From Chitinophagaceae bacterium (lineage in GTDB: Bacteria > Bacteroidota > Bacteroidia > Chitinophagales > Chitinophagaceae): a DNA stretch of 49,692 nucleotides. The position numbers and the translations under genes are program-made. A model generated the notes under the pieces. The model ran no database searches, had not been told where the DNA came from, and saw only the letters and a program-made list of their open reading frames with translations. The stretch covers positions 1 to 49,692 of the forward strand of contig CANFLL010000023.1 in assembly GCA_947447825.1 (NCBI GenBank), read 5' to 3'. Shown piece after piece: positions 8,605 to 32,379 of the stretch. Within the stretch, counting starts at the first letter, position 1. Every line of letters starts with the position of its first letter.

Positions 8605-9519
8605 ATGAATAAGGTTAGTTTGGTTTTATTGTTTTGCCTCTGGGCTTCAGTAAGTTTATTAGCACAGCCTTTTAAGGAAGGGAATGTATATTATGACAAA
8701 AATAAGTGGGTAGAGTTTGTGCCTGGCAATATGCCCTTGGTGATTAGTGTGCCGCATGGAGGATTAATTAATTTGGCTGATGTGCCTGATAGAGATTGTC
8801 CAGACGCAGTAGTTGTAATCGATTCTCATACACAGGATTTAGCAAGGGCTATTGACTCAGTTTTTAGACGTGATTATCATTTTCATCCCTACATTGTTTT
8901 TTGCAATTTGAGAAGATTAAAAGTAGATATGAATCGAGAAATTGAGTTAGGCACATGTGGCCACGAGGAGATGCGAGGTACTTGGATTCATTGGCACAAC
9001 ATGGTAGATACTGCTTTGGCAATGGCTGTGAAGCAATATGGACAGTCTGTTTACATTGATTTACATGCACAAGGGCATCCTGAACAGCGGCTAGAGTTGG
9101 GGTATTTATTAAAAGAAAGCGAGTTAAAAGAGTCTTTCACTGGTGGCAACGATACTGTTTACACTTCAAAAGCATCCATCAACAACTTAATATCTGGCAG
9201 CAAGGGAAAACTTAATTTAAAAGATATGCTTACAGGCACAAATGCGTTTGGAACATGGATGGTGGAATCTGGTTTTCCTTCGGTACCAAGTAAGCAAGAT
9301 CCTTTTCCATACCCTAATCAGAAATATTTTAATGGAGGATATAATACTGCTCGGTACTCCAAAACACCCAACGTTTTTGGTTGGCAGATAGAAACAAACT
9401 ATAAAGGTGTTAGGGATACGCCTAATGCCTATTACAGTTTTGCAGAGGCATTTGTGAAAAATATAATGCGGTACATTGCTACCTATACAACAATAGATGT
9501 AAAGAAGATGGGTAAATAG
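8605..9519 (+). CDS. N-formylglutamate amidohydrolase-like secreted enzyme
   Basis: I place the start at the ATG 8605, because it leaves a clean signal peptide (MNKVSLVLLFCLWASVSLLA) in a 304-residue protein; a GTG at 8575 in the same frame would add ten residues. Family motifs, numbered from 8605: SVPHGG (H51 region), a VVIDSHTQDLA segment, NLRRLKVDMNRE (101-112) and IDLHAQGH (151-158). These match the zinc amidohydrolase fold of N-formylglutamate amidohydrolase (PF05013). The cytoplasmic members act in histidine degradation. This one is exported and has no hut neighbours, so its substrate is probably different. It follows a T9SS-cargo gene by 45 bases and ends in a terminator. Confidence 0.7.
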   Translation: MNKVSLVLLFCLWASVSLLAQPFKEGNVYYDKNKWVEFVPGNMPLVISVPHGGLINLADVPDRDCPDAVVVIDSHTQDLARAIDSVFRRDYHFHPYIVFCNLRRLKVDMNREIELGTCGHEEMRGTWIHWHNMVDTALAMAVKQYGQSVYIDLHAQGHPEQRLELGYLLKESELKESFTGGNDTVYTSKASINNLISGSKGKLNLKDMLTGTNAFGTWMVESGFPSVPSKQDPFPYPNQKYFNGGYNTARYSKTPNVFGWQIETNYKGVRDTPNAYYSFAEAFVKNIMRYIATYTTIDVKKMGK

Positions 9520-9558
9520 TTTTTTTGTTTAGTTGGTTACTGTTAGTCAACATGTAAG

Positions 9559-9591
9559 GGCATGGCTTTAAAACAAAGCTGTGCCTTTTTT
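9559..9591 (+). terminator. Rho-independent terminator after the amidohydrolase gene
   Basis: The arms GGCATGGCTTT (9559-9569) and AAAGCTGTGCC (9575-9585) pair through 11 positions, two of them G-U, around a five-base loop. Six T follow. It lies 40 bases after the stop codon. Confidence 0.8.
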
Positions 9592-9680
9592 ATTAAAATA
9601 TACCTTTTACTTTTTAGCATATAAATACATTTAGATTTTATTATCCGAGGTCGTTATTTAAGGGAAATTCTAAATACGAA
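9592..9680. other. Short AT-rich spacer
   Basis: No gene or regulatory motif is seen between the terminator and the foldback element. Confidence 0.4.
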
Positions 9681-9901
9681 GGAAAGTTTCGCTTAAAACG
9701 AAGGTGTGTGTAACATTTTTTCAACAGAAATGAAATATGAATATTTTGCCACCAATTTCGCTAATGAACACTTATAAATATATTCTATTCTATTTGTGTT
9801 TATTTGTGTAGTTAGTGGCAAAATACTTTCTCTGCCAAATTTTATTGTCTCCATAAACTCTTTGAAAAAAAATGTTATACACACAAAAGGAAGCCTTCCT
9901 T
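9681..9901. repeat. Foldback (MITE-like) element with imperfect long inverted arms
   Basis: The left arm (9681-9780) and the reverse complement of the right arm (9781-9901) align over most of their length. Shared blocks include GTGTGTGTAACATTTTTTCA (left, about 9705) and GTGTGTATAACATTTTTT (right, reverse strand), then TATTTTGCCAC in both. The outer ends are hairpins in their own right: a GGAAAGTTTCG/CGAAGG structure at 9681-9704 and AAGGAAG-C-CTTCCTT at 9887-9901. No reading frame of consequence is inside. The hairpin at the left end has a relative at 44008-44037. Confidence 0.65.
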
Positions 9902-10662
9902 AACTAAAGAGCATTGCATCATTAATGGAAATATGTCTTTATAATTCTACTTTGACACATTAGATTTTATGATTTTTGTTTGAAAAATATTTAGGATTGG
10001 CAATAGCTTTTATCAAAATCGCTAGGACAAAAGGATGAACCCTAATATCATAAGAGTAAAATATTTAGGTTTTACAAAAATGAATTTAGTTAGGTTATAC
10101 CATTTATAGAATGATTGGGCATAGGGGAATGATTAACATCCTTGATTTCAAATGAATGAAGCTTATCTCATTTAGCAAACCAAATTCTGCTGAGTATAAT
10201 CTATAAACCCCTTAAACACTTTACTGTAAATGAATACATCATTCAATTTAGCAATTTTAGCATCAGAAAGCGTCATTTATTAATTTGAGTGAGTCGACGA
10301 CTCAACTGAATCCTTGGCCCAATCAAGTGAGTCGTCGACTCACTTAGGTGAATAAATGGAAGAAAGAGGACTAAAACAAGGAACTCACTTTGACATTCAG
10401 CGTGTTTGGAAAAAGCTCCGAGAAAGTTTAGAGCTTTCTTAGAGTTGACACAGTTTCATAAAAATTTATCGCTTTTATCTTTTATAACTAGCCTAATCTT
10501 ACATATCTACAATAGTTAGGAGATTATCGCCTATTTGTTTCGCTAATTTATGTGGCTATTTTTATCAAAAGAAACTAATTTATTAATGCAAATAGTTTAT
10601 GCGTTTAATTTGTGTTGTAAATAACTTGAAAATTTGTCATTACCAAAGTTTAGTATTTCAAC
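9902..10662. other. Non-coding stretch with a pair of mutually inverted palindromes
   Basis: No gene is seen in 760 bases. The notable sites are TGAGTCGACGACTCA (10290-10304) and its exact reverse complement TGAGTCGTCGACTCA (10328-10342), described as a separate entry. The rest is AT-rich. A weak -7-like AAAATTTG precedes the GT14 gene by about 30 bases. Confidence 0.5.
10290..10342. repeat. Two 15-bp near-palindromes in inverted orientation
   Basis: TGAGTCGACGACTCA (10290-10304) and TGAGTCGTCGACTCA (10328-10342) are reverse complements of each other, and each has arms TGAGTC/GACTCA around a 3-base centre. The right copy extends to AAGTGAGTC/GACTCACTT (10325-10345). The composition is more GC-rich than the surroundings. 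Possible roles are a dimeric regulator site pair for the downstream sugar genes (about 320 bases away), or a mobile-element end. Confidence 0.75.
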
Positions 10663-11496
10663 ATGAAAATAGCTCACCTTATTTTAGCACACAATCATCC
10701 AACACAATTGGACAGGCTTGTTAAACGAATTGTAAATGAACAAGCAGATGTTTATATTCATTTAGATAAGAAAACAGATATTACCCCTTTTGTACACCTA
10801 GAAAAACTAGCCAACGTATTTTTTGTGAAAGAGAGAGTTGTGGTTAAGTGGGGAGAGTATAGTGTTATTAAAGCTACCTTAGAGGGTATGAAAGCTATCC
10901 TTGCCACTAAGATTACCTACACCCACATTAATTTATTGAGTGGAAATGATTATCCATTAAAAAGTAATGACACCATCCAACAATATTTATTTGCCAATTA
11001 TGGCAAATCATTTATGTGGTTCGACCGCATTTTTAATGATTGGCCGGAAGGACAATTGAGATGCAATAAATATGATTTTGGCGATTATGGTTTTCCAGGA
11101 AGGTATCAGTTAACTAAACTATCAAACACTTTTTTGCCAAATCGAAAGCCCCCCTATAAACTTGTTCCTTATGGTCGATCTCAATGGCTAACAATTACCC
11201 CGACCTGTGCTGAATATGTTTTAAACTATTTAAAAAATCATTCTAAGGCAGCAAATTATTTTAGATTAACATGGTGTGTTGATGAAATTTTTTTTCAAAC
11301 TATTCTTTGTAATTCTCCTTTATCCACTACACTCATAAATAATAATTTAAGACACATACCCATCGATAATGAATGTAGGCCATACACGTTCACAAGTACA
11401 GATGTTACAGAACTAAAAGCTTCGGGAAAGTTCTATGCTAGAAAATTTGATTTTGAAAAGGATGAAACTATTTTCAATTTATTAGACGAAGATTAA
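10663..11496 (+). CDS. GT14-type (core-2/I-branching) glycosyltransferase
   Basis: The 277-residue protein carries the bacterial GT14 pattern: an N-terminal IAHLILAHNHPTQLDRLV, VYIHLDKK, a VKWGEYSVIKATL block, and NLLSGNDYPLKS in the middle, followed by a WFDRIF region and a conserved YGRSQWLTIT segment. GT14 enzymes transfer N-acetylglucosamine or xylose; the donor and acceptor here are unknown. There is no signal peptide and no membrane span, so it is cytoplasmic. A second, related GT14 gene follows after 216 bases, and both precede sugar-nucleotide genes, so they probably act on the same glycan. Confidence 0.85.
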   Translation: MKIAHLILAHNHPTQLDRLVKRIVNEQADVYIHLDKKTDITPFVHLEKLANVFFVKERVVVKWGEYSVIKATLEGMKAILATKITYTHINLLSGNDYPLKSNDTIQQYLFANYGKSFMWFDRIFNDWPEGQLRCNKYDFGDYGFPGRYQLTKLSNTFLPNRKPPYKLVPYGRSQWLTITPTCAEYVLNYLKNHSKAANYFRLTWCVDEIFFQTILCNSPLSTTLINNNLRHIPIDNECRPYTFTSTDVTELKASGKFYARKFDFEKDETIFNLLDED

Positions 11497-11712
11497 TCTA
11501 ATTTTCAAGCTATTTGGTATGCTTAACAAAATCAATCAACTAAGGACACTTCTTTTTTAGCCAACGGAATTAAAGAAAATACCAACCCCAAAACAGATTC
11601 GGGAAATGTTATAAAACAAATGAAGTTCAATTTCTTTAATTTTTTTTTAATATTTAATACTTATTTTATACTTTTTTGTATATAATTGCAGAACTGTAAT
11701 ACTAGTTAATTT

Positions 11713-12573
11713 ATGATGAAGCAAAAGAATGCTGTTATAATTCTTACGTACACCTCACCAAAGCAGACATTAAGATTAGTTAACGCAATGAATAACGGAG
11801 ATTTTGATTTTTATATCCATCTTGACAAAAAAGTAGATATGAAAAGCCATGAAGAATTCGACGTTTACAACAATGTATTTTTCATTGAGGAGCCAATTGA
11901 TATCAAATGGGCGGGATACTCGACTACTGAAGCCATCATTAAAAGTGTAAAATTTATAGAACGCTCCGGAAATAAATATTCTTATATTTCTTTGATCTCT
12001 GGTCAAGATTACCCAATAAAGTCGGCTGCCTACATTACTCAATTTCTTAAGGACAACGCAGGGAAAGAATTTATTAATTACAGGTACTTTGATGAATGGA
12101 CAGAAGCTATTGAGCGAGTTGAAAAATATCACCTAACAGAATATCAATTTAGAGGACAATATCTTATTCAGAAAGCAATTAATGGAATACTTCCTAAAAG
12201 AAAGTTCCCGGTTGATACCAAACTTTGTGGTAAAGAAACTTTCTGGACTCTTACTTACGAATGTGCCATTTATACAGCACATAAAATAGATTCAAACAAA
12301 CAATTAAAAAGGTTTTTACGCTACACTTGGGGCTGTGATGAGTTCATTTTTCAAACAATAATTATGGGTTCTCCTTTCAAAAAAAATGTGGTAAATGACA
12401 ACCTTCGTTTTATAAATTGGCCTGATGGTCAAGCAGCGCGTCCTAACTTTTTTGTTTCCTCAGATTTTGAAAGAATACTTGCTTCTAAGGCTCTCTTCGG
12501 AAGAAAGTTTGATATTAAACTAGATGAACATATTTTGGATTTATTAGACCATGAATTTTCAATAACCTTTTAA
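11713..12573 (+). CDS. GT14-type (core-2/I-branching) glycosyltransferase, second copy
   Basis: At 286 residues it has the same architecture as the gene at 10663: AVIILTYTSPKQTLRLV at the N-terminus, FYIHLDKKVDM, IKWAGYSTTEAII, SLISGQDYPIKS, then KETFWTLTYECA and WGCDEFIFQT. The two proteins are clearly homologous but well diverged, so the duplication is old or the genes came in separately. ATG codons at 11713 and 11716 are both usable. The next gene starts nine bases downstream, which indicates translation from one message with the ketoisomerase and the aminotransferase. Confidence 0.85.
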   Translation: MMKQKNAVIILTYTSPKQTLRLVNAMNNGDFDFYIHLDKKVDMKSHEEFDVYNNVFFIEEPIDIKWAGYSTTEAIIKSVKFIERSGNKYSYISLISGQDYPIKSAAYITQFLKDNAGKEFINYRYFDEWTEAIERVEKYHLTEYQFRGQYLIQKAINGILPKRKFPVDTKLCGKETFWTLTYECAIYTAHKIDSNKQLKRFLRYTWGCDEFIFQTIIMGSPFKKNVVNDNLRFINWPDGQAARPNFFVSSDFERILASKALFGRKFDIKLDEHILDLLDHEFSITF

Positions 12574-12582
12574 AAATGTTTT

Positions 12583-12957
12583 ATGGCGTACATGTTAAAG
12601 CTTACATCTTTTTACGATGAAAGAGGACGATTAACACCGGTAGATGGAGTTTTACCTTTCGAAATAAAGCGAATGTATTATATCAGTAATGTAAATAACG
12701 AATCAGAACGTGGAGGGCATTCCCATATTCTAACAGTTGAAGCATTGTTTTGTGTAAGTGGTAGTTTTAGTGTTGTTATTAATAATGGTAAAACAAAGGA
12801 AGAATTTTATTTAAACGACCATAATCATTGTCTTATTATAGAACCTAATGACTGGCACATGATGCATAACTTTAGTATGGGTGCTATTCTGTTGGGAGTT
12901 TCCTCAACTTCTTATGATAAGTCAGATTATATTTATGAAGAGCCTGAAATAGTGTAA
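12583..12957 (+). CDS. WxcM/FdtA-like sugar 3,4-ketoisomerase (cupin)
   Basis: This is a 124-residue single-domain cupin. Diagnostic segments are FYDERGRLTPVD, IKRMYYISNV, ERGGHSHILTVEALFCVSGS and EPNDWHMMHNFS, which correspond to dTDP-4-oxo-6-deoxyglucose 3,4-ketoisomerases (FdtA, QdtA, TylM3). The expected product is a dTDP-3-oxo-6-deoxy sugar. The following gene, starting at the very next base, is the matching aminotransferase, so the pair would make dTDP-3-amino-3,6-dideoxy-hexose (Fuc3N or Qui3N). The sequence does not tell which epimer. An alternative start at 12592 (MLKLTSF) is possible. Confidence 0.85.
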   Translation: MAYMLKLTSFYDERGRLTPVDGVLPFEIKRMYYISNVNNESERGGHSHILTVEALFCVSGSFSVVINNGKTKEEFYLNDHNHCLIIEPNDWHMMHNFSMGAILLGVSSTSYDKSDYIYEEPEIV

Positions 12958-14052
12958 ATGATACAATACGAAAACTTAAAAAGGTTAAATGAACCATTTG
13001 AAACAGCGTTTCAAGAAAAATACAATGAAGTAATTGCAAGCGGACATTACATTCTGGGTCCATCTTTACAAACTTTTGAAAAAGAATTTGCAGCGTACCA
13101 TTCTGTAAACTATTGTGTGGGGGTTTCTAATGGGTTAGATGCCATTATTTTAGCATTGAAAGCACTCAATTTACCAGAAGATGCGGAAGTAATTGTTCCC
13201 TCTAATACCTATATTGCTACAATATTGGCTATTGTGGCTTGTAATCTAAAACCTGTTTTAGTTGACCCATCTATAAACACTTACAATATAGACCCAGAAA
13301 AAATTAAACAGTGCATTACTCAAAAAACCAAAGTGTTGCTAATTGTTCATTTGTTTGGCAAGATGTGTGCAATGGATGAAATAATGGCCATCAAAGAAAA
13401 GTATAAACTATACCTTATTGAAGATTGTGCACAAGCCCATGGAGCAACTTACAAAAATAAACTAGCAGGTACTTTTGGTGAGTTTGGCGCATTCAGTTTT
13501 TATCCTACCAAAAATTTAGGAGCATTAGGAGATGCTGGTGGAATAATATGCAACAACGAAACGCATTACAACACACTACTTCATTTACGCAATTATGGCT
13601 CATTAAAAAAATATTACAATGACATTCTAGGCTATAATAACAGAATGGATGAATTGCAAGCTGCTTTTTTAAGTGTTAAGCTACCTTATCTAAATCAGAT
13701 GAATAGCCATAGAAACAAATTGGCTTCATTATATCACCAACATTTAAACAAGTCAAAGTTCATCCTTCCATCCAAAGACGAACATTATTTTGATGTTTAC
13801 CATGTGTTCAATATTCGGAGCAGAGATAGAGATAATTTGCAGAAGTATTTGCAAGATAATGGGGTGGGTACACTAATTCATTACCCAGTTGCCCCCCATA
13901 AGCAAAAAGCTTTGGCCCATTTGTTTGTGGGGATGGAGTTCCCTATAGCCGATGAAATTCATAGCACTACTTTAAGTATTCCTTGTTCTTTCTGTCATAC
14001 AGAATCTGAAATATTACAGGTCATTAAAGTGTTAAATGGTTTTAATGCTTAG
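12958..14052 (+). CDS. DegT/DnrJ/EryC1-family sugar aminotransferase (FdtB/QdtB-like)
   Basis: A PLP-dependent aminotransferase of 364 residues, the usual length. The Schiff-base lysine is K185 in SFYPTKNLGA, the cofactor-binding Asp is D156 in IEDCAQAHGA, and SNGLDA (57-62) binds phosphate. The NRMDELQAA segment is also typical. Substrate choice comes from context: the ATG follows directly on the stop codon of a 3,4-ketoisomerase, which fits 3-amination of a dTDP-3-oxo-6-deoxy sugar. No N-acetyltransferase or dTDP-glucose dehydratase is next to it, so those steps must be encoded elsewhere. The acetyltransferase at 22307 belongs to a different type of transferase. Confidence 0.9.
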   Translation: MIQYENLKRLNEPFETAFQEKYNEVIASGHYILGPSLQTFEKEFAAYHSVNYCVGVSNGLDAIILALKALNLPEDAEVIVPSNTYIATILAIVACNLKPVLVDPSINTYNIDPEKIKQCITQKTKVLLIVHLFGKMCAMDEIMAIKEKYKLYLIEDCAQAHGATYKNKLAGTFGEFGAFSFYPTKNLGALGDAGGIICNNETHYNTLLHLRNYGSLKKYYNDILGYNNRMDELQAAFLSVKLPYLNQMNSHRNKLASLYHQHLNKSKFILPSKDEHYFDVYHVFNIRSRDRDNLQKYLQDNGVGTLIHYPVAPHKQKALAHLFVGMEFPIADEIHSTTLSIPCSFCHTESEILQVIKVLNGFNA

Positions 14053-14277
14053 ACAGTTATATATGATAAAAAGAAGCAAGAAACATCTATAACCATATAC
14101 AACTTTGAAAAATTAAAATAAGAAAATTGTAATTTGATTCATCGATAATACAATTTACAAGATCGATGAATCAAATTACATTTAAGGTTTTCAATACAGA
14201 TTATAATGGGGCAATATAATTCCCTTTCCAATGATGATTAATTAACCATGTAAGGATTCAATAATCATCATTCACCA
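14053..14277. other. Spacer with a 19-bp-arm inverted repeat
   Basis: The arms TGTAATTTGATTCATCGAT (14128-14146) and ATCGATGAATCAAATTACA (14162-14180) are perfectly complementary around a 15-base loop. It lies 75 bases after the aminotransferase stop. Without a T-run it is not a textbook terminator, but it could stabilise the 3' end of the sugar-operon message. Nothing else is seen in this stretch. Confidence 0.7.
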
Positions 14278-14532
14278 CTAATACCATTTTTCCACCATTG
14301 CCCTCATAAAGGCAAGGCTTCCTTTTGCTAAGCCTGCTGAATTATATTTTGATGGTCGCAACAAAGAAGTAGGGCCTACTAAAGCCGTTATTTCCGACGA
14401 AAAGTTTTCCAGTACCAATGGACTTTGATAATCAATTTCAGCTAATCCCTTAAATAAATCATCCCAATGCACATTCCCCTCCCCTAGCATACCTCTATCA
14501 CTTTCCGTTATGTGCAGGTGCTTTAAATGTTT
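14278..14532 (-). pseudogene. C-terminal remnant of a sugar phosphate isomerase/epimerase (TIM-barrel)
   Basis: The minus-strand frame is open from a TGA at 14533-14535 and reads HLHITESDRGMLGEGNV, then WDDLFKGLAEIDYQSPLVLE and a C-terminal SLAFMRAMVEKWY. This is the end of a sugar phosphate isomerase/epimerase (tagatose/psicose 3-epimerase-like) of about 280 residues; only about 85 remain. The E and H residues of the metal-site region (HITESDRG, LENF) are present, but the barrel's first two thirds are missing. A stop interrupts the frame upstream. The remnant points to past gene loss at this locus. Confidence 0.7.
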
Positions 14533-14810
14533 TCACTAATTAATTACAGGTTGATAAAAGTTGCGTTTTTCAATATTCATCTAAAAAGTAACGCTAGTGC
14601 CATCAGTTCCATTTAATTTAGGCGTAAATTGAATGGTAGGCAAAATGTCCATATAATTTTGCTCCATCCTTCCAGCTAATGATCCTTGCCAAAAAAGATT
14701 CAGTTTTAACCTACAATGACCACCCCTTTTTATAAAGAGAAAAGTTTCCATCAACACTTTAAAGCAATTTTAGTACTAAAAACGAACTATTTCCCTTAGA
14801 TGAACTTGAC
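14533..14810. other. Decayed or non-coding spacer
   Basis: A minus-strand frame at 14581-14751 reads 56 residues (includes FWQGSLAGRMEQNYMDILP) and could be another gene remnant, but I do not recognise it. No other structure is seen before the palindrome array. Confidence 0.3.
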
Positions 14811-14995
14811 TTTACTGTACAGGAATACCTTTTTCCTGTACAGTAAAATCATTTTACTGTACAGGAAAATCATTTTACTGGTGAGGAAAACCATTTTACT
14901 GTACAGTAAAACTTCATTACTCTAGAGGAAAATCATTTTACTGTACAGTAAAATCAATTTACTGTACAGTAATGCGCCATTACTCTACAGTAAAA
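14811..14995. repeat. Nine-unit palindromic tandem array with an exact 21-bp period
   Basis: Nine units, each a near-perfect palindrome with consensus TTTTACTGTACAGTAAAA, follow one another. Their six-base centres start at 14816, 14837, 14858, 14879, 14900, 14921, 14942, 14963 and 14984, so the spacing is 21 bp at every step. Six centres are TGTACA; the others are TGGTGA, TCTAGA and TCTACA. Half-sites come in two kinds, GTAAAA and GGAAAA, mixed among units. All frames contain stops, so it is not a coding repeat. Two helical turns per unit place all sites on one face of the DNA, as expected for an array of dimer-binding sites. Unlike a CRISPR array, it has no unique spacers. Confidence 0.9.
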
Positions 14996-15659
14996 ATTGC
15001 CTTTTAATGAGTTTGAAACTTTTATCGTAGGCAAAAGGATGGGGCATTAATGAGAAAAAGTTTGAATCATCAGAAACAAAACTTTTCGCATAGTGAGAAA
15101 TGAAGGAGATTATTTTTATGATTATATAACTTAAATAAAAAGAGTCTACCTTATTTTATTAAACACAAAGATGCTAAGACTGAAAGAAGCACAAAGACCA
15201 GTTTAATTTTCTTTTACTATTTTCCTTTGCGCATCTTAGCGTTTTTGAGTCTTTGAGTTGAAGAAAAAAAAGGAAAAAAAGAGGTTTGAAAAAGTATTGT
15301 TATAAAATTAATAATCATCCGAAGAATTAGGTATTAACCACATTTAAAAAAGAAACTTTATTGAGTTATTCAAAGTTTTTTTCTTAGAGGAAGAAATACG
15401 TAATTATTTAAGAAATAACTGAGTGGTAAGTTTTAAAAAGTGAAGGTGAGTATGTTTTTATTAGAAAGAAAAATGTCATAAAAAATAAATATTATTTATC
15501 AGGTGATTTCTAGGTTTCAAATAGGTTGGCACAAATCATTAAACAATTAATTTTTACAGGAATGGCAGTATTATTATCTGAAACGTATTATAGATAAGTA
15601 ATAATCCTGCAACTTTGCCGATTGCTGTTTTTACGCTAAAAAATGTATTAATTTAAAGT
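14996..15659. other. Non-coding stretch with a diffuse inverted repeat
   Basis: No gene is seen. A left segment with CACAAAGATGCTAAGAC (about 15164) and a right segment whose reverse complement contains CGCTAAGATGCGCAAAGG (about 15223-15240) form an imperfect inverted repeat of a type I recall as frequent in Bacteroidota spacers. A -7-like CAACTTTG lies about 45 bases before the S9 peptidase start. Confidence 0.4.
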
Positions 15660-17573
15660 ATGAAAAAGATTTTACTACTTCTTACCATCGGTACTACCCT
15701 ATTTGCTTCGGCTCAAAACATAATGACTCCCGATCTTCTGTGGAAGCTTGGAAGAGTTGGTGGAATAGGTATCACAAAAGATAAAAATTATGTGGTATAT
15801 GTTGTTACTAAACCAGACTTACAAGGCAATAATTCTAGTAGTAAATATTATAAAGTTCCAATTAGTGGAGGCCAATCTATTGAACTAGGAGATGCGGTTG
15901 ATAGTTTACTGGTGAATGAGAAAATTTCTCCAGATGGCAAATATCTTTTAACAACGGAGGAAGTTCAAGTGAAAAAAGTGCACTCTAGTAACCTTTATCC
16001 AGATTTACCTAAAGCAAATGCTTACGTGTATGAATCGCTTAATTATCGTCATTGGGACACTTGGGAAGATGGAAAATTTGGACACGTATTCTTCACGCCA
16101 ATAGTAAATGGGCATTTAGGAGAATCGAAAGACATCATGGCAAATGAACCATACGATTGCCCTCAAAAACCTTCTGGTGGCGGAGAAGATTTTATCTGGA
16201 ATCCCGACAGTAAGCACATTCTATATGTTACTAAAAAGAAGTTTGGAAAAGATTATGCAGTTAGTACTAATACTGATTTGTATGAGTATGATATTACAAA
16301 CGGAACTACCAAGAACTTAACAGAAAATAATAAAGGGTATGATGTTGACCCTGCTTATAATAGTAAAGGAGTACTTGCGTGGTTGCAAATGAAGCGGGAT
16401 GGATATGAATCGGACAAGCAGGATTTGATTGTTTACGACGGGAAAAATAGTATCAACCTAACCAAAGATCACGACGAAATTCATGTTGAAGGTTTTAAAT
16501 GGGCCGAAGATGGAAAGAGTTTGTTCTTTTGGGCACCACTGAATGGAACAATACAAATATTTTCTGTAACCTACTCCAATAACACGCTATTAAAGCCAGT
16601 AATAAAACAAATTACCAAAGGAGAATTTGACATAACTGGGGTGGTTGCACAGAAAAAGGATACTTTAATATTATCTAGAACTGACATGAACCATGCAACA
16701 GAATTATTTTCGTACGTTCTGGCTTCAGGATCAATGCAACAATTAACGCATACAAATGATGACGTTTATAATACCTTGGCAAAATGCAAAGTGGAACGCA
16801 AATATGTTACTACTACAGACGCTAAGAAAATGTTAGTATGGGTAATATATCCACCGGCATTCGATTCTTCTAAGAAATACCCAACACTTTTATATTGCCA
16901 AGGAGGACCGCAAGTGGCACTTACTCAGTTTTATTCTTACAGATGGAATATGCAATTAATAGCCTCACAAGGATATATTGTGGTAGCACCATGCAGAAGG
17001 GGAATGCCAGGCTTTGGTTCAAAATGGAATGAAGAAGTTAGTAAAGATTGGGGTGGGCAGGTAATGAGAGACTACCTAAGTGCGATAGATGCAATTAGCA
17101 AAGAAAAGTATGTGGACATTAACAGGAGAGGTTGTGTGGGAGCAAGCTTTGGGGGGTATTCAGTATATGAACTAGAAGGAATGCACCAAGGACGTTTTAA
17201 AACTTTTATCGCTCATGACGGAATTTTTGATTTCAAGAGTATGTATGGCACTACTGATGAAATATTTTTTACTAATTGGGAAAGTGGTGGTAAATATTGG
17301 GATAAAAGCAATATAGCTGCTCAAAGATATTTTAGTCAAAGTCCAAGTAATTTTGTACAGAATTGGAATACGCCAATAATGATTATTCAAGGTGGCAAGG
17401 ATTACAGAGTGCCATTAGAACAAGCCCAGCAAGCGTTTCAGGCAGCACAACTAAAAGGCCTTAAGAGTAAATTACTCTATTTACCCGAAGAAAACCATTG
17501 GGTATTATGCCCACAGAATGCAATTGTGTGGCAAAGAGAATTCTTTAAATGGCTAGAAGAAACTTTGAAATAA
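15660..17573 (+). CDS. Secreted S9 family peptidase (prolyl oligopeptidase/acylaminoacyl-peptidase type)
   Basis: The 637-residue serine peptidase has a signal peptide (MKKILLLLTIGTTLFASAQ), an N-terminal beta-propeller (to about residue 380, with PDGKYLL-, NPDSKHILYV- and EDGKSLFFW-type blades) and a C-terminal alpha/beta-hydrolase domain. The catalytic triad is S496 in GASFGGY, D581 in GGKDYRVP and H613 in EENHWV. The oxyanion region YCQGGPQ (412-418) is present. It probably degrades peptides in the periplasm or on the surface. It is monocistronic: a strong bidirectional terminator starts 23 bases after the stop. Confidence 0.9.
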   Translation: MKKILLLLTIGTTLFASAQNIMTPDLLWKLGRVGGIGITKDKNYVVYVVTKPDLQGNNSSSKYYKVPISGGQSIELGDAVDSLLVNEKISPDGKYLLTTEEVQVKKVHSSNLYPDLPKANAYVYESLNYRHWDTWEDGKFGHVFFTPIVNGHLGESKDIMANEPYDCPQKPSGGGEDFIWNPDSKHILYVTKKKFGKDYAVSTNTDLYEYDITNGTTKNLTENNKGYDVDPAYNSKGVLAWLQMKRDGYESDKQDLIVYDGKNSINLTKDHDEIHVEGFKWAEDGKSLFFWAPLNGTIQIFSVTYSNNTLLKPVIKQITKGEFDITGVVAQKKDTLILSRTDMNHATELFSYVLASGSMQQLTHTNDDVYNTLAKCKVERKYVTTTDAKKMLVWVIYPPAFDSSKKYPTLLYCQGGPQVALTQFYSYRWNMQLIASQGYIVVAPCRRGMPGFGSKWNEEVSKDWGGQVMRDYLSAIDAISKEKYVDINRRGCVGASFGGYSVYELEGMHQGRFKTFIAHDGIFDFKSMYGTTDEIFFTNWESGGKYWDKSNIAAQRYFSQSPSNFVQNWNTPIMIIQGGKDYRVPLEQAQQAFQAAQLKGLKSKLLYLPEENHWVLCPQNAIVWQREFFKWLEETLK

Positions 17574-17762: not shown

Positions 17763-18533
17763 TTAATGCGATGATTTTACTTTTAAAATTTTTAATTTTA
17801 TAAGTTCAATAGTAATCAAATAAAGAAAGATTGAGTTAGTAACAAAATATCTTTTGAAAAGTCTTTTTGGATCTTGAATAAACCTAAAAAGCCATTCAAG
17901 ACTATATTTCTGCATCCACTGTGGTGCACGCCTTTGCATCCCTAGCATTACTGGCAATGCGCCCCCTATACCTACCATGCAACAATTAATTTTACCTTTC
18001 ATGGATGACATCCATTTTTCTTGTTTTGGACATCCAAGTACTGCAAAAACTAGGTTTGGATTTTCTTTATTAATTAACTCTACCATAGATTTCTCTTCAA
18101 CAAAAGTCAATGGCCTAAATGGGGGAGAGTAACAACTTAAATTTTGAATGTTTGGATATTTATTAAGTATGAATTCCTTTGCTAAGTTTAGCATTTCATT
18201 AGTTCCACCATATAAAAAAATAGAAAATTTATTTTTGTTAGCTTCATTTAATAAATCAGGTAACAAATCCATTCCTGCAACCCTATCAGAGGATTTACCC
18301 AAAATCTTTCTTGAAGCTACCACTAAAGGCATTCCATCGGGAGTAACTAAATCAGCATTATCAATAATCTTTAGAAAATTTTCATCTCTATAAGCTTCAA
18401 TAAACATGTGAACATTTGCAACACAAACGTAAGAAGAGATATTTTTTTTAGCCATTATAATAATTTCATTTAAAAAATCATTATAATCACCTAAATTAAG
18501 CTTAAAGCTAAATATTTTACCTTCAGATAGCAT
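17763..18533 (-). CDS. WecG/TagA/CpsF-family (GT26) glycosyltransferase
   Basis: At 256 residues it is of normal length. Family segments: NADLVTPDGMPLV, SSDRVAGMDLLPDLL, FAVLGCPKQEKWM and RRAPQWMQKYSLEWLFR near the C-terminus. GT26 enzymes add the second sugar (N-acetylmannosamine or its uronic acid) to undecaprenyl-diphosphate-linked GlcNAc on the cytoplasmic side. That suggests the polymer here starts from such a lipid intermediate. The gene is the last of the minus-strand polysaccharide cluster, 351 bases downstream of the beta-helix gene, and ends near a bidirectional terminator. The sugar donor cannot be read from the sequence. Confidence 0.88.
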   Translation of the reverse strand: MLSEGKIFSFKLNLGDYNDFLNEIIIMAKKNISSYVCVANVHMFIEAYRDENFLKIIDNADLVTPDGMPLVVASRKILGKSSDRVAGMDLLPDLLNEANKNKFSIFLYGGTNEMLNLAKEFILNKYPNIQNLSCYSPPFRPLTFVEEKSMVELINKENPNLVFAVLGCPKQEKWMSSMKGKINCCMVGIGGALPVMLGMQRRAPQWMQKYSLEWLFRFIQDPKRLFKRYFVTNSIFLYLITIELIKLKILKVKSSH

Positions 18534-18884
18534 TCATATAAATTTTCATAAACATAAATTAAAAAACTAAATACTTTACGTTAAGACTTTCTGGATTCGT
18601 GTAAGGAAAGAAACTTGTTATTCTAAATAAAAAAATTACTGAACTTTTCAAGAAAAAATATGCATTTACATTATCGTTAAGATTACTTATTACAAGACGT
18701 TAAAATTTAAAACTTTTGAATCAATTTAGCGTTTGATAAAATATCGTTTATCAAAATGAATAATATGACAAAAATAATAAAACAAAAGAGAGTAATTTTC
18801 ACTAGGAAATTATTATTAGAAAAAGATAGTGGTAATAACAAATAATTTCATTAATTGAACATATCATAGAAATAATAAAATATG
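18534..18884. other. AT-rich spacer inside the polysaccharide cluster
   Basis: No gene, terminator or clear promoter is seen between the beta-helix gene and the GT26 gene. Its length leaves room for a separate promoter for the GT26 gene. Confidence 0.4.
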
Positions 18885-20732
18885 TTATTCAATTAATTTT
18901 TCAAACTCCTTAGTTCTTTCTTTATCTATTTGTGGTTTAGACTTCCATTTTAAATTTCCAGAAAGCCCAATTTGCCTCAAATCTATAGAAGAAAAATTTA
19001 CAATATCAAGTAACTTTTTATTGGAAAAAGAAATTCTTTTATTTGGAATAAAATGAATAAAAGGATTTGAAACGAAAGAATGAAAATCATGTCCCAATGC
19101 TTTCCATTTTGAGAAATCATCTGATAAGAATGGAAATTCGTTTCCAGTTGATTTATAGTAGATATTACTATCTATAATAGCATCTATTTGATTCCAGGGA
19201 CCAGAAAATAAATTACCTTTTTCCCAAATTATTATATTATTTTTTAATTCAAAGGCCTGGTGCTTCTCAACTCTAGCACAAATCAATTGATTTTGAGTTG
19301 CATTTAAGAATATGTTATTTCTAACTATATTATTTTTTCCATAGTGTTGGTAAAAGCTTGCACTTTGAGCATTATAAACAACATTACTCATAATAAGTAC
19401 ATTTGAAGTCCCCTCGTCGGTATAAATTCCATTAGCCCCATAAACATTACAGGCTACATCATGAATACAGTTATTCAAAATACGTGTATCATTAGAAATA
19501 CCCAAAGTATAAATTCCAGCCATGTCACTCAATCTCCCCCATCCTATATGATGAATATTATTAAAAGCAATAAGATTATTATATGAGAAAGAAGTACCAT
19601 AGCCCCATACCCAACCTACTGATATTCCAGAGTAGTATAAATCAGAAATATCATTATGAGTAATTTGATTTGAAGAACTTTGTGTAATCAATATTCCAAC
19701 AGCTTCAGGAATCAATTTTCCACATCCCTCAATAATATTATTGTTAATAATGATATTTTTAGTTGTAATATTATCAGAATTAATTCCTACATCTCCGATT
19801 TTAATTCCTCCTGCTCCTAAATCACCAAATTCACAATGATTTACATTACAAAAATTGCAAGCTGAGTCAAACCAAATACCATAATTTCCAGTATGTTTTA
19901 TTGAACAGTTTTTAAAAATAATATTATTTGCAAAATCGATTTTAATAGAAGCGTTTTCATTTGCAGCAGCTTGACAGGGTTCATGATTTATGGATTTTAA
20001 TTTAGTATACTCAAAGTCAATTCCTTCAAAAGTAAAGTCAGAAATTCTATTTTCCTTATCTCCCCTAATCACTAAAAGTTGATCTATTGATGGAGCAATT
20101 AGGTTGTCAAGCGTATGAATATCATTAATAAATTTAGGCTTAAATATTAAATTTCCATTTTGATCTACGAGATAGTCTCCACAATTTTTGTGTGACAATA
20201 AATCCTCTGCATTTAAGATTTGGTAACATGTATTTTTATCAATTGGATTCCAATTTAAAATTGGGTTTCCACTTATAAAAAAAGAGCTATCTTTTATATT
20301 AAGGGAATCAATTTTTTTTATCGTTACATTCCAATTATGATACAATAAAATATATTGAGGCTTTCCTAATTGAAAATTTGTAAAAACATAATTTGAATGT
20401 GAAGAATTAATTTTTAGTTCTTGAATTGCTGGACCAGATTTTCCAAAAGAATTAAGACTTAGAACTTTTTGCCTAAAATATTTCAACTTGTAGTTTTTAT
20501 CAAAATCAGTTTCACATAATTTAACACGATGACCATTCAGAAAAAGTTGAGGAATTTCTTGTAAAGAATCGCTTCGAAGATTATTTACTTTAATTATATT
20601 ATTTTCAAGCTTAAAAATAATAGATTTTTTATTGTCACCAGAAAGAACAACATGCCCTATATTTTCAGCTTTAAAATTGACTTTAAAACCCAAACAGGTA
20701 AACTCTTTAGTAATTAATATTGGAGAATCCAA
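18885..20732 (-). CDS. Right-handed parallel beta-helix protein, probably secreted; N-terminus likely further upstream
   Basis: From the TTG at 20732 the product has 615 residues. Residues about 220-510 are rungs rich in Asn and hydrophobics (IIINNNIIEGCG, THNDISDLYYSGISVG, RILNNCIHDVACN, YGANGIYTDEG). This is the parallel beta-helix of pectate lyase-like enzymes, uronate epimerases and phage tailspikes. The frame stays open upstream to about 20996 and encodes FIVISFFIFSTVNSHYS, then FIISPNGNDKNICGPFKTF. That is a signal peptide plus the usual beta-strand opening of this family, so the real protein is about 87 residues longer. No ATG is available; a CTG at 20991-20993 is the best candidate. 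It may trim or epimerise the polymer made by the cluster; catalytic residues were not identified. Confidence 0.78.
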   Translation of the reverse strand: MDSPILITKEFTCLGFKVNFKAENIGHVVLSGDNKKSIIFKLENNIIKVNNLRSDSLQEIPQLFLNGHRVKLCETDFDKNYKLKYFRQKVLSLNSFGKSGPAIQELKINSSHSNYVFTNFQLGKPQYILLYHNWNVTIKKIDSLNIKDSSFFISGNPILNWNPIDKNTCYQILNAEDLLSHKNCGDYLVDQNGNLIFKPKFINDIHTLDNLIAPSIDQLLVIRGDKENRISDFTFEGIDFEYTKLKSINHEPCQAAANENASIKIDFANNIIFKNCSIKHTGNYGIWFDSACNFCNVNHCEFGDLGAGGIKIGDVGINSDNITTKNIIINNNIIEGCGKLIPEAVGILITQSSSNQITHNDISDLYYSGISVGWVWGYGTSFSYNNLIAFNNIHHIGWGRLSDMAGIYTLGISNDTRILNNCIHDVACNVYGANGIYTDEGTSNVLIMSNVVYNAQSASFYQHYGKNNIVRNNIFLNATQNQLICARVEKHQAFELKNNIIIWEKGNLFSGPWNQIDAIIDSNIYYKSTGNEFPFLSDDFSKWKALGHDFHSFVSNPFIHFIPNKRISFSNKKLLDIVNFSSIDLRQIGLSGNLKWKSKPQIDKERTKEFEKLIE

Positions 20733-21037
20733 ACCATAATATCCATCCTTTATAATTATGGTTACATTTTCATTATTTTTCGAAATTTTTAATTTTTTAA
20801 TTTGAAAAAGTGCCCCAGTAAAAGTTTTGAATGGACCACAAATGTTTTTGTCATTTCCATTTGGTGAAATAATAAATATCTTATTAGCAATTGAATAATG
20901 ACTATTTACTGTTGAAAATATAAAAAAACTTATTACAATAAATGATTTATTGAATTTAGGAAATAAACTAAAATTAAAATAAAAATGATTCAGATGAAAA
21001 AATTATTAAATTATTGTAAATTATTAAATTTATTAAT

Positions 21038-22150
21038 TTAAATATTTTCAAGAATAGATACTAATCTATTCTCAAAAATATCTATGGTGAATTTATTTTC
21101 ATATTTTTTTCTACCTGCTTTACCCATTTCTGTGGCGAGATGACGATTGTTAATAAGTATTTCAATTTTATCCGCAAGCTGTTGAACATTTCTCTGTGGT
21201 ACTAAAAATCCAGTGATTCCATCTTCAACAATATCTGGAATCCCTCCTTCGTAGGTAGAAATGATTGGAAGACTATATTGCATTGCTTCCAAATTTACTA
21301 AACCAAATGTTTCATTTTGATAATAGGTTGGAAAAACAAAAACTGATGCACTTTTAAAGTATTGTACTTTGTCGAGACCATATTTTTTTCCTTCATATTT
21401 TACAATTTCATTTAAATCTAACTCAGTTGTCTTCTTTTCAAACAATTCCTTATTAATATCCCCCTCACCACCTATAAATATGCAATTAAATTCATAACCT
21501 TTATTTTTTAATAAATAACAGGCCTCAATAAGTATATAAACACCTTTTGTTTCAATTAGATTTGATAAAAATAGAATTGAAAACTGATTACGATTTGAAT
21601 TCTCATTAGTGTTTTCAATTTTAATTATTTCAGATATTCCATTAGGACAAATATGTATCCTATTTTTGGGTACAAACATGTCAATGTCAGAATATAAAAT
21701 AGATGATAACAAAATCACTTCTGATTTATAAAATACATATTTATAACAGATTCTATAAAAAAAGTTATCTTTATAGTTACGTACTCCTTTGTTATGCATG
21801 TGGTAAACTAGTTTTACTTTAAATAATTTTAAAATAAAAATAAGTAAAACATCCTTAAAAAAGGCAGCTCCAGTTGCTGTTATGGCATAATAACACAATA
21901 AAGGTTTTACATTTTTTAACTTATGAAGTAATATAAAAAATGTTTTTACAAAACCCATTAACTTAAAAAAACTTAATTTTCCAGTACTAGCAACATCCTT
22001 GGATGCCAGTAAGTTAATATATGAACATTTAAATTTAGTGTTTATAAATTCACTATCATATATAGTCTTACCAATTATAGAAGAACCATGTACTGGAGGA
22101 GGAAGATGAAGTAAAAAAAGGATTGATTTTATATTGTTTTTATTCACCAT
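21038..22150 (-). CDS. GT4-family glycosyltransferase
   Basis: A 370-residue retaining glycosyltransferase with GT-B fold. The N-terminal PPPVHGSSIIGKTIY loop and the C-terminal EX7E motif (NETFGLVNLEAMQ), followed by LPIISTYEGGIPDIVEDGITGFLV, are typical of GT4. It would add one sugar to the lipid-linked repeat unit at the inner face of the cytoplasmic membrane. It lies between the acetyltransferase (156 bases upstream) and the beta-helix gene. The sugar specificity is unknown. Confidence 0.88.
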   Translation of the reverse strand: MVNKNNIKSILFLLHLPPPVHGSSIIGKTIYDSEFINTKFKCSYINLLASKDVASTGKLSFFKLMGFVKTFFILLHKLKNVKPLLCYYAITATGAAFFKDVLLIFILKLFKVKLVYHMHNKGVRNYKDNFFYRICYKYVFYKSEVILLSSILYSDIDMFVPKNRIHICPNGISEIIKIENTNENSNRNQFSILFLSNLIETKGVYILIEACYLLKNKGYEFNCIFIGGEGDINKELFEKKTTELDLNEIVKYEGKKYGLDKVQYFKSASVFVFPTYYQNETFGLVNLEAMQYSLPIISTYEGGIPDIVEDGITGFLVPQRNVQQLADKIEILINNRHLATEMGKAGRKKYENKFTIDIFENRLVSILENI

Positions 22151-22306
22151 TTACACTTAAATAAATTTCCAGAATTAATAAAAAAAGAGTAAAAAATAGA
22201 GTTAGTGAGTTTTGATTACATAATATTCAGAACATATTTTCAAACAAATCTGTAGCTATTAAAAAAATTAGAGAGGATTAGATTCAAATAAGAAATGAAG
22301 AATTGC

Positions 22307-22813
22307 TTAACCACCAATTATCCTAGCAGGATTTCCAACAACAATTGAATCAGATGGAACATCCTTTACAACTACAGAACCAGCGCCTATTTTTACGTTA
22401 TTACCAATTTTTATAGGTCCAATAATACATACATTAGACCCTATATCAACATTATTACCAATAATAGGACTAGCAGAATAGTTACCATCAATTAACTGCT
22501 TATTGCCAATTGTTGTTGAATGACGTAATATACAATTATTACCTATTACAGTCCCATCATTAATAACCAAACACTGCCCATGATAAATTCTTAGACCACT
22601 TCCAACTATAGTTTTGTAAGGAAGCTCACAACATAATAACCATTCAACCAAAATTCTATAAAAAATTAAATAGGGAATAAAAACTAGAAAAACTATCTTA
22701 TTTTTTGTTGCTAAATGACTTAATCTAAATAAAAAAAGAATAAATCTTGCTTTTGGATTTTTATTATTAGATTTCCAATCCTGAAACAATCCATTATTAT
22801 TTATATTACTCAT
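22307..22813 (-). CDS. Serine-acetyltransferase-like hexapeptide-repeat acyltransferase
   Basis: This 168-residue protein has a hydrophobic N-terminal third (KIVFLVFIPYLIFYRIL) and a left-handed beta-helix from about residue 85, with hexapeptides such as VIGNNC, IIGNNVDIGSNV, IKIGNNVKIGAGSVV and a final VVGNPARII. The His in RHSTTIG fits the active site of this family. In capsule clusters such proteins O- or N-acetylate a sugar of the repeat unit. Its start codon overlaps the stop of the GT2 gene by one base, so translation is probably coupled. It is shorter than true CysE serine acetyltransferase. Confidence 0.82.
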   Translation of the reverse strand: MSNINNNGLFQDWKSNNKNPKARFILFLFRLSHLATKNKIVFLVFIPYLIFYRILVEWLLCCELPYKTIVGSGLRIYHGQCLVINDGTVIGNNCILRHSTTIGNKQLIDGNYSASPIIGNNVDIGSNVCIIGPIKIGNNVKIGAGSVVVKDVPSDSIVVGNPARIIGG

Positions 22814-23598
22814 TAAATATTAAAATATTTTATTTTAAAAACTTTTTTAACTGCAAAATGCAAATATTTTAACAAAACAAACAACTGAAGTTCAAAGAAA
22901 TTTAGTCCGACATTCCTTCGAGCTTGGAACCCTTCATTTATATCATTCTTTAAACTCATTTTACCAGAAACACCATAATTTAGTCTAAAGTTTACATAAG
23001 CATGTGGAATATATTTGAATTTATATTTATATTTCAAATATAAAGTATAAACCAATTGATAATCAGATGTAGATTTTAAAATGGTATTATATTGAAGTTC
23101 TTCATACAAACTTTTATGAATGAACATAGAAGGATGACTAAAAGTCATAGTTAAATAACGTAATTTCAATTCTGAATTTTTATATCTATATAAGTGTTTA
23201 GCCCCATCAATATCAACGTCATACCTATCTCCATGAAAAACTTTAAACGAATCGTCCTTTATAAATTCGGATACTACTAATTCTAGAGCATCTAACTCAT
23301 ACCAGTCATCACTATTTAACAACCCAATAAAAATGCCTGACGATAAGTTTATTCCCTTGTTCATTGCATCGTATATACCATTATCTCTTTCACTTATAAA
23401 AATTGATATATTATCTTTATATCTTTCAATAATGTCTAAGGTACCATCAGTAGAACCACCATCAATTATAATATATTCAAAATTTTTATAAGTCTGATTT
23501 ATAACACTTAATATTGTTTGTTCAATTGTAGAAGCAGAATTATAAGATACAGTAATAATAGAAATTAAAGGAAATTCATTGTGATTTTTGTTTAACAT
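22813..23598 (-). CDS. GT2-family glycosyltransferase
   Basis: The 261-residue GT-A enzyme shows the family N-terminus [20 protein letters not shown] (10-29), the nucleotide-binding [11 protein letters not shown] (43-53), [13 protein letters not shown] (70-82) and the metal-binding NSDDW (95-99). It would transfer one sugar to the lipid-linked repeat. The frame overlaps the upstream GT4 gene by seven bases and touches the acetyltransferase gene by one base, so it sits in a tightly packed translational unit. Confidence 0.9.
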
Positions 23599-24737
23599 AT
23601 CTTAATTTTTAACTTATTTTGAACAACATCCGAAAGTATATTTAAGTTAGATCTTGAAGAATATTTATCAAAAAATATTTTATGAGCTATATCAGTCATA
23701 TCAAAATTATTGTTTAAAACATCAATAATAGATTTTTTAAACAATGATGAAGTATTTGCAATTAGTATGCTTCCTTTATGCTCAATACCTTCCGCACCTA
23801 CATCAGTACTAACAATTTGTGTTTTTAAAGCCATCGCTTCGACACATTTTAATCTTGTTCCACTTCCTTCTATCAATGGAACAACGGAAACCTTTGCCTT
23901 AGCAATAATGCTCTTCAAATCAGATACACTACCTAGGGCTTTAACATTTTTTAAATACACATCTTTCAACTGAGGAATATCTAATGCTTCCTTTGAATAG
24001 TTTCCTGCTAAATATAATTCTGTTATCAAACTTAATTCTTCGTCCCAAACTTCATTAAGAAACCAAATTAGTCCATTAAGACTTTGTATGGTATTAAAGT
24101 TTGCTGAAAAAATAACATAATTACTCTTTGACTCAGAAGGAAAATATTCTTTTTCAGATACAAAGTTTGGCAAAAGAATATTTTTTGAAGCAACTGAGAT
24201 CTTAGAATGATAATTCAAATCAATTTGAGATACAGAAATAATATAGTCCGATTTATTGAAATAAAATTTCTCATGAAAAGAAGCAAGAGTAAAATTTAAT
24301 TTACCTCTAAAAGTGTGACCATCAACTTGTTTTATAAGATTTGCTTGGGAATTGTGTGTTCCATATAATACAGGTATCCCTAAAGATTTAAAAAATAAGA
24401 TATACTGCCCTAAAAAACCGTAATCTAAGAAAACAAGAGAAATCTTCTTAACTTGAATGATTGAAACTATTAATTCTTTTAATTTCTTATCAATAATGAA
24501 ATAATCACTTGCTTTGCTAAAGTAATTTTTCTTCCTAAGAAAATCAAACTCATGGAATATAATATTAGGAGATAAATTAGTTGGATATTCAGAAAGCGAA
24601 TTTCCTATAATTGCGTTAACAGACATTCCCATATCTGAAAATAAATTAATTAACCCTAATGATCTAATCTTTTCACCACCATAGGTAGGAAACAAAGAAA
24701 TTTGTGTTACAAATAAAATTGAGGAAGTATTACTCAT
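23592..24737 (-). CDS. GT4-family glycosyltransferase
   Basis: At 381 residues this is a GT-B enzyme: an N-terminal [19 protein letters not shown], and a C-terminal [20 protein letters not shown], then [13 protein letters not shown]. It resembles the glycosyltransferases that act late in capsule repeat synthesis. The start overlaps the stop of the polymerase gene by four bases (ATGA), and its end overlaps the GT2 gene. Donor and acceptor are unknown. Confidence 0.87.
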
Positions 24738-26095: not shown

Positions 26096-26102
26096 TTTTT
26101 TA

Positions 26103-28735: not shown

Positions 28736-28824
28736 TAAAAGACAAATTGAATAATAAAAAAAAATCTAAAGGAAATAATGTAAAATAAAAAAAATCCATA
28801 CATCAAGAATCTTATCCATAAAAC

Positions 28825-31224: not shown

Positions 31225-31237
31225 AAAATATTAATAT

Positions 31238-32056: not shown

Positions 32057-32379
32057 CTTTACTATATTAATTTATTTATAAATTATTATATCATCAAAAT
32101 TTAATTCTATTAATGATTTATTATAGCCTTAACCCAACATAAATAAGTTTTTAGTTCTGAATATCTAATAAATTTATCTGAATTTAGGAAATATTATTTA
32201 AAAATAAAGCGAATTAAATAAATCAAACTAAGTAAAAAATATGCTATACTATTAAAATTCTTACTTACTTTTAGAATTAAATATTTTTGGCTTATATAAA
32301 AAAATGTAAACCTACGCATTACTAAGTTTTAATAATTTGATACATTCTACAAGAAAAATTATATTAAAATTTTATAAAA
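32057..32379. other. AT-rich spacer, possible promoter region of the export genes
   Basis: No gene is seen in 323 bases between the unknown 421-residue protein and the Wza-like gene. It is long enough to hold the promoter of the main cluster on the minus strand, but I cannot place a convincing -33/-7 pair. Confidence 0.35.

Follow-up and report, generated by a model that had tools for sequence, protein, structure and literature searches.

Several kinds of periodic or palindromic bacterial DNA are well described. In iteron and plasmid-centromere arrays (such as the ParR-parC type), the sites for a protein follow one another at a whole number of helical turns, all on one DNA face, and each array lies at a single locus beside the gene for its binding protein. 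CRISPR arrays are regular palindromic repeats with unique spacers of constant length. MITE-like elements are non-autonomous, multi-copy, and non-coding, with terminal inverted repeats and a target-site duplication.

The array that we describe here, and the class of arrays to which it belongs, resemble each of these systems in part. Like iteron and centromere arrays, they have whole-turn spacing (20, 21, 40, or 42 bp for 52 of 53 pairs of the box described below), but the unit family of our array is found at ten loci, the class extrapolates to about 235 arrays per genome, and the neighbors of our array encode an aminotransferase and a peptidase. As in CRISPR, the palindromic repeats are regular, but there are no spacers. 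Like MITEs, the arrays are multi-copy and non-coding; inverted repeats lie at the ends of one family (the TGAGTCA family) and, weakly (34 nt, 71%), around our array, where they may be element ends. Unlike in MITEs, the core is a strictly periodic array; no consistent target duplication was seen in the flanks of 12 copies of the TGAGTCA family.

The nearest published work concerns heptamer direct repeats such as TAACTGA, which the accessible part of that report describes as intergenic tandem repeats with many copies and unproven function in Beggiatoaceae, Cyanobacteria, and five Bacteroidetes (PMC4679880). Our arrays are also intergenic, tandem, present in many copies, from Bacteroidetes, and of unproven function, but the heptamers, as that part of the report presents them, are 7-bp direct repeats of one sequence, while we find 20- or 21-bp boxes with a dyad and many unit sequences. 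REPs are likewise small palindromes with many copies, and most carry a GTAG/CGTC tag at one end, according to the accessible part of another report (PMC3733652); by eye, no such tag is visible in our unit consensus. In the literature, we found no title or abstract opening that describes 20- or 21-bp intergenic box arrays (most subscription papers were outside the scope of this search). The arrays point to an undescribed DNA-level element.

Nine units with an exact 21-bp period

The window (the whole stretch of 49,692 nucleotides that we analyzed, from an uncultured freshwater member of the Chitinophagaceae) contains the array and its surroundings as follows.

14810–14995, no strand: nine near-palindromic 18-mers with 3-bp linkers, period 21 bp (from reading the units, Tandem Repeats Finder, and lag identity)
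12958–14052, plus strand: upstream neighbor, DegT/DnrJ/EryC1 aminotransferase
15660–17573, plus strand: downstream neighbor, S9 prolyl oligopeptidase
14715–14748, plus strand: left arm of a 34-nt, 71% inverted repeat around the array; possible element end
15015–15048, minus strand: right arm of the same inverted repeat

The units begin at 14810, 14831, 14852, 14873, 14894, 14915, 14936, 14957, and 14978, and the final 18-mer finishes at 14995. All of the steps are 21 bp, as the original prediction had it, and this places all of the sites on one DNA face. Tandem Repeats Finder reports either a period of 21 with 7.6 copies (14811–14969) or a period of 63 (14811–14995). The identity at lag 21 reaches 81 of 105 positions; when DNA from an 850-kb sample of the same genome was block-shuffled, every window stayed below 58 of 105 across lags 12 to 31. 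The units are imperfect: the center is GGTG in unit 4, CTAG in unit 6, and CTAC in unit 9, and the ends of units 1, 6, 8, and 9 differ from TTTT or AAAA.

The original prediction also described the array as non-coding and as lying in a 1.6-kb gap, and both descriptions hold: each of the six frames has at least one stop, and the bounding open reading frames (ORFs) end at 14052 and start at 15660, which leaves a gap of 1,607 bp. It is not CRISPR, as was also stated, because there are no spacers; the units run head to tail with 3-bp linkers, which are mostly YSR where AAAA meets TTTT. A simple heptamer repeat is ruled out by the identity at lag 7, which is just 0.24.

The left flank of the array is partly similar (by eye) to sequence beside another array of the same unit family (L053), and the right flank is similar to sequence beside a third (L051). 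Since parts of the flanks recur at these two places, the array may lie within a short element of about 330 bp. The array is not conserved in place: when we read 1.5 kb upstream of the S9 peptidase orthologs in the seven other genomes that were readable there, we found no 21-bp array, and a conserved array upstream of this peptidase is ruled out in these genomes. It follows that arrays move or arise anew, and that some are then kept.

Some other features of the window were noted. Right after the aminotransferase gene, at 14125–14183, is a 22-nt, 95% inverted repeat that is perhaps a terminator. A 42-bp unit (2 x 21) with an inner CTCTTA-TAAGAG palindrome is repeated 2.2 times at 43461–43553, and CCATAA is repeated in 9.7 exact copies at 28856–28913, within the end of a minus-strand ORF. 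The GC content is low (about 24–30%) across 18000–33000, where the genes tested include glycosyltransferases.

A class of intergenic arrays with lag 21

We scanned 849,692 bases (about 850 kb, or 18%) of the window's own genome (G000), comprising the window and 40 stretches of 20 kb. This sample is not a random draw, as it takes the first 40 kb of each of 20 large contigs. We called an array where a 105-bp window had at least 63 matches at any lag from 12 to 31. Lag 21 accounted for 43 regions, lag 14 for 10, lag 28 for 8, lag 22 for 3, and lag 12 for 2, and lags 16, 18, and 24 had one each. The remaining lags, including 19, 20, and 23, had none, and neither did shuffled DNA. Extrapolating by length from this non-random 18% gives the figure of about 235 arrays per genome. 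The original prediction named arrays of any period at random places as the case against its own reading; we did not encounter this case, as lags other than 21, 14, and 28 are nearly empty.

For 145 arrays, the commonest periods from Tandem Repeats Finder were 21 (47 arrays), 42 (19), 14 (13), and 7 (12). Period 21 was also the commonest, or tied for it, in samples from four congeners (G004, G006, G011, and G012). In the lag scan, parts of G006 and G012 matched at every lag; these parts are probably masked or of low complexity and were left out of the counts. Arrays of at least three tandem copies were absent from samples of three genomes from other genera of the family (80 kb each of G016 and G034 and 60 kb of G123).

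The 43 arrays have a median length of 9.3 units. They fall into 26 BLAST families of unit sequence, a number that varies with the BLAST threshold. The identity at lag 7 was below 0.55 for 36 of them, and the other seven are also 7-periodic. (Separately, the genome has 7-bp tandem arrays of the TAATCAC and ACTTTTA types, at L123 4923–5055, L120 86–213, and L113 10680–10795.) Relative to column permutations, 27 of the 43 arrays were palindromic at p < 0.05 and 22 at p < 0.01, and by hand tally 13 of the 26 families have a member that is palindromic at p < 0.01.

Among all 43 arrays, a single one extends more than 20 bp into an ORF of at least 150 amino acids (by 23 bp), and none lies inside such an ORF. 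As 21 bp corresponds to seven codons, an array could be the remnant of a gene for a heptad-repeat protein, and some arrays, such as those of the TGAGTCA family, do have open frames of 80–90 amino acids. But frames with no more than one stop (98 of 258) are as numerous as expected by chance (96.7 by column permutation, standard deviation 5.8), every frame of the window array contains a stop, and 20-bp arrays exist. We consider coding heptads to be ruled out by the first of these results, and a heptad remnant to be extremely improbable.

We could place 32 of the 43 arrays in predicted gaps between ORFs of at least 90 amino acids. The orientations of these gaps (20/8/4) are as expected from gap length (19.7/8.7/3.6). 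This rules out a promoter-side or terminator-side element and argues for an architectural element rather than a promoter element. It also bears on the idea that each unit family is a cluster of operators, bound by a dedicated regulator that controls the neighboring genes. Such operators would fit with the palindromic units on one DNA face and with the unit vocabularies that are common to several loci of a genome. Against this idea, there is no upstream preference, and 26 families would require as many regulators. Nor did the 21 array loci that we compared have a common neighboring gene: flanking genes were alike only at orthologous places or, weakly, among common families (surface proteins, sensor kinases, and transporters). 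Dedicated operators are therefore a poor explanation that we think has little chance of being correct. A test for even spacing of the arrays along the contigs gave no significant result (dispersion p = 0.11).

The unit family of the window array and its conserved box

A BLAST search with the window array against its own genome gave 22 matches at ten places (on contigs 7, 13, 17, 23, 47, 57, 61, 63, 75, and 78), and these arrays have 7 to 9 recognizable units each. The search of the genome that the original prediction called for thus shows the window array to be one of ten in its family, and this family belongs to a much larger class. At two of these places (L046 7932–8141 and L047 3257–3487), a 21-bp array of other letters abuts the window-family array in the same phase. 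We asked whether the window-family arrays had been copied whole, with the order of their units preserved. The best register had a mean identity of 0.76 versus 0.73 for the next, so that most pairs do not discriminate, but a few stand out (for example, L046/L048).

The half-sites do come in two versions, as the original prediction had noticed, but they are not freely interchangeable. Among the 89 units of the ten arrays, the combinations at positions 5 and 14 are A-T in 38, A-G in 24, C-T in 24, C-G in 1, and other in 2. The C-G combination, in which both halves are of the GG type, is avoided (1 seen versus 7.2 expected; Fisher p = 0.001, with the units treated as independent).

The units are near-palindromic, as predicted, but the palindrome is not the element that recurs. 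In the comparison of related genomes, the box that is best conserved across species in the window superfamily is the junction AAAA-YSR-TTTT (A4-YSR-T4), not the ACTGTACAGT palindrome, whose center is particular to G000. In the window, the boxes are as follows (the first four are from the box-pair search).

14845–14855, no strand: AAAATCATTTT box
14866–14876, no strand: AAAATCATTTT box, 21 bp further
14887–14897, no strand: AAAACCATTTT box, 21 bp further
14929–14939, no strand: AAAATCATTTT box, 42 bp further; the intermediate box at 14908–14918 is degenerate
14971–14981, no strand: variant junction AATG-CGC-CATT; AATG and CATT covary across the junctions of the family

Within arrays, 46 of 55 AAAA-NNN-TTTT junctions were YSR (28 of 35 in the ten arrays of G000 and 18 of 20 in five arrays of G001, G003, G004, and G006), versus 18 of 220 in the sampled DNA of G000 outside the window array, a background that kept the other arrays of the sample in. 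The difference has a Fisher p of about 2e-28, with the units treated as independent, which they are not fully. The ends of the junctions covary: AATG was paired with CATT or CAAT nine times, as compared to four cases of AATG-TTTT and two of AAAA-CATT (p = 3e-6).

We then searched 13 genomes for pairs of boxes at every distance from 14 to 42 bp. Seven of the genomes had such pairs. By hand tally, the 53 forward pairs were 21 bp (16 pairs), 42 bp (19), 20 bp (14), 40 bp (3), or 30 bp (1) apart, where pairs within one array are not independent; the reversed control gave four matches. The 20-bp spacing occurs at some loci in G003 and G004 and for one pair in G011, and the spacing is 21 bp elsewhere. 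In two related species, box arrays have a period of 20 rather than 21:

L064 7216–7385: A4-YSR-T4 box array, period 20
L066 3784–3940: A4-YSR-T4 box array, period 20

Both 20 and 21 bp are about two turns of B-DNA. As 20 is not a multiple of 3 or 7, neither codons nor heptamers explain the spacing of the boxes, which is two helical turns rather than seven codons. The combination of conserved spacing with varying unit sequence, which the original prediction had proposed as the mark of a binding array, is seen across some related genomes.

A pattern of three boxes matched 4 of 394 Chitinophagaceae genomes (G000, G003, G006, and G200), and the control had no matches. G200 belongs to another genus and has a ten-copy 21-bp array at its match. 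In a scan for a strict two-unit pattern across one genome for each of 84,980 species, which may leave out the window's own genome, only three Chitinophagaceae MAGs matched, and these are members of the same genus (G001, G003, and G006).

An array at the same place between mraY and murD

We searched for the gap between mraY and murD in 13 genomes, of which 11 were readable (G007 had no match to mraY, and G008 had no murD motif on the contig). Lag 21 was the top lag in 7 of the 11. It was strong in G000, G001, G003, and G004 (0.77–0.83) and weak in G009 (0.58), G002 (0.57), and G006 (0.50, with the next lag at 0.48). The unit phase is the same in all seven genomes: counted from the first base of the mraY stop codon, the units start 13 bases on. 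G005, G010, G011, and G012 have no such array in this gap. Example units are as follows.

G000: CTTTCTTGATGAAGAAAA
G004: TTTTCGTGATAACGAAAA
G001: TTTTAATGATGATTAAAA (also one unit of G003)
G003: TTTTAATGATAAGGAAAA
G006: TTTTAATCCGGATTAAAA
G009: CAATTCGTATACGAACTG
G002: TTTTGTTCATGAACAAAA (three units only; dyad not significant, p = 0.17)

For the six pairs among G000, G001, G003, and G004, the in-register identity was 0.59–0.75, as compared to 0.40–0.55 at fourfold sites in mraY and a mean of 0.30–0.32 for shifted registers. The array and the fourfold sites differ in composition, so these identities are only roughly comparable. In the comparisons with the other three genomes, the array is about level with fourfold sites: the values are 0.48–0.51 in register and 0.41–0.56 at fourfold sites for G006 versus these four genomes, 0.41–0.43 and 0.40–0.48 for G002, and 0.33–0.36 and 0.34–0.36 for G009. 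Some identical units are common to G001 and G003. Given the in-register identity relative to the fourfold sites and to the shifted registers, the register is kept where the letters turn over, and in four species the letters, too, are kept beyond the level of fourfold sites.

We compared two other loci. The array between an EamA gene and a phosphatase gene is 96% identical between G000 and G004, as compared to 69% at 123 fourfold sites. The next 55 bp are 100% identical, so local divergence may be low, and we did not count this array as evidence. At this gap, G003 has a 20-bp array of other letters, and there was no clear array beside the gene in the other nine genomes that we read. For the pair L053/L065, the G004 array is short and degenerate and aligned poorly.

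The array between mraY and murD sits in an operon-like gap. If such gaps are transcribed, the arrays might fold into rows of RNA hairpins that affect mRNA stability, termination, or coupling. Relative to mononucleotide shuffles, the window array had a folding z score of -12.0, and the seven mraY-murD arrays had scores of -5.0 to -9.4 with the exception of G006 (-1.4); relative to column shuffles that keep the period, the scores were -1.4 to -5.3. The sense strand folds better in four of these seven arrays. But strong predicted folding follows from the palindromes. RNA stems would favor GT mismatches on the transcribed strand, and there was no excess of GT over AC across the dyad: there were 13 GT and 14 AC mismatches in the seven mraY-murD arrays in the sense direction, and 20 and 19 in the window family on an arbitrary strand; a count centered on the junction gave 11 and 7. 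The pooled mismatches (246 AC and 194 GT) come from arbitrary strands and are uninformative about the transcribed strand. Also, the window family often has A-G and C-T mismatches but avoids C-G, and divergent and convergent gaps are used as often as expected. No Rfam family reached the gathering score in the regions searched (9000–16000 of the window, L217, L097, and L129), which rules out a known Rfam RNA there. Overall, the similar numbers of GT and AC mismatches rule out RNA hairpins as the main reading, and we consider an RNA element to be improbable.

Spread of the arrays and the origin of their period

The array of the TGAGTCA family matches 40 places in G000 by hand count (40 of 51 candidates scored). 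An alignment of 12 copies gives a 706-bp element with near-perfect inverted ends of about 16 bp (by eye), and by eye the flanks of these copies have no consistent target-site duplication. The arrays in the copies that we read are 189, 210, or 231 bp long, so they differ by whole units. As the arrays of this family change length by whole units and are carried in a 706-bp inverted-repeat element, there is a real component of repeat spreading. A partial copy of this element, about 75% identical, is found in the window at 9942–10353. In most of the other families with multiple members in the sample, similarity is confined to the array or extends no more than about 100 bases past it; an exception is L137/L140, whose similarity runs 481 bp past the array. 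The window family is at ten dispersed places, and the window array has no open frame.

These observations raise the possibility that the arrays are mutational or selfish: a cellular or element-encoded process might add whole units of 20–21 bp to palindrome-prone intergenic DNA, for example by making symmetric staggered cuts at a distance of two helical turns, filling them in, and joining the ends, with transposition of inverted-repeat elements spreading the arrays. The spacing and the dyad would then reflect the enzyme and not any use. Besides the TGAGTCA family, with its 40 places, its 706-bp element, and its whole-unit length differences, this would account for one common period among 26 BLAST families, for the near-identical units within single arrays (such as 103 of 105 lag matches in L129), for the random gap orientation, and for the 27 of 43 arrays that are palindromic at p < 0.05. 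But it leaves unexplained the constraint on YSR across species, and the register at mraY-murD along with identity above that of fourfold sites among four genomes. We regard it as a possible explanation, if a somewhat doubtful one.

We favor another reading over a pure duplicator or a selfish array, although both can hold for different arrays. Tentatively, and with a chance that we judge to be just short of even, the arrays are platforms with multiple sites along one DNA face, where a putative dimeric architectural protein that reads A/T tracts would dock; most likely, the arrays spread partly inside small inverted-repeat elements. The period is exact, the box and its spacing law of 20 or 21 bp hold in the genus, the arrays are intergenic, there is neither a coding signal nor a mismatch bias of the RNA type, and the register is conserved at mraY-murD. 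The array is a non-coding DNA element with dyad-symmetric A4-YSR-T4 boxes in a row, placed two helical turns apart so that they all point to the same side of the double helix. The boxes may be read by sequence or by groove shape (an A-tract, a flexible Y-R step, and a T-tract), and the reader could be a dimeric architectural or nucleoid-type protein that acts cooperatively on neighboring boxes. The 10 bp between boxes vary among species and may tune affinity. Copies would spread as short elements, partly bounded by inverted repeats, that are tolerated between genes.

Two alternatives raised by the original prediction can be judged in this light. A single partition site is unlikely, given the number of arrays. 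An expanding repeat describes part of the data, in that the TGAGTCA family does spread, but we prefer the platform overall.

Against the platform, most of the 26 families of G000 have no A4-YSR-T4 box in their consensus, so one protein that reads this box cannot explain the whole class. In addition, the unit vocabularies that recur at several loci of a genome could stem from copying instead of shared selection. We also considered an element class that is defined by geometry, with intergenic arrays whose sole invariant is a dyad within a two-turn period. Such arrays would be built one unit at a time by a dedicated two-turn duplicator and then used, at conserved sites like mraY-murD, as docking rows for a nucleoid protein whose letter preference drifts among species. 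We think that this is unlikely, but it deserves some weight.

Within a single genome, the unit lengths of tandem repeats would be expected to vary widely. In G000, dozens of arrays share a single unit length, equal to two helical turns, although their unit sequences are unlike; in related species, the register stays and the letters differ. The explanation is either a protein that responds to geometry more than to sequence or a machine that counts helical turns as it duplicates.
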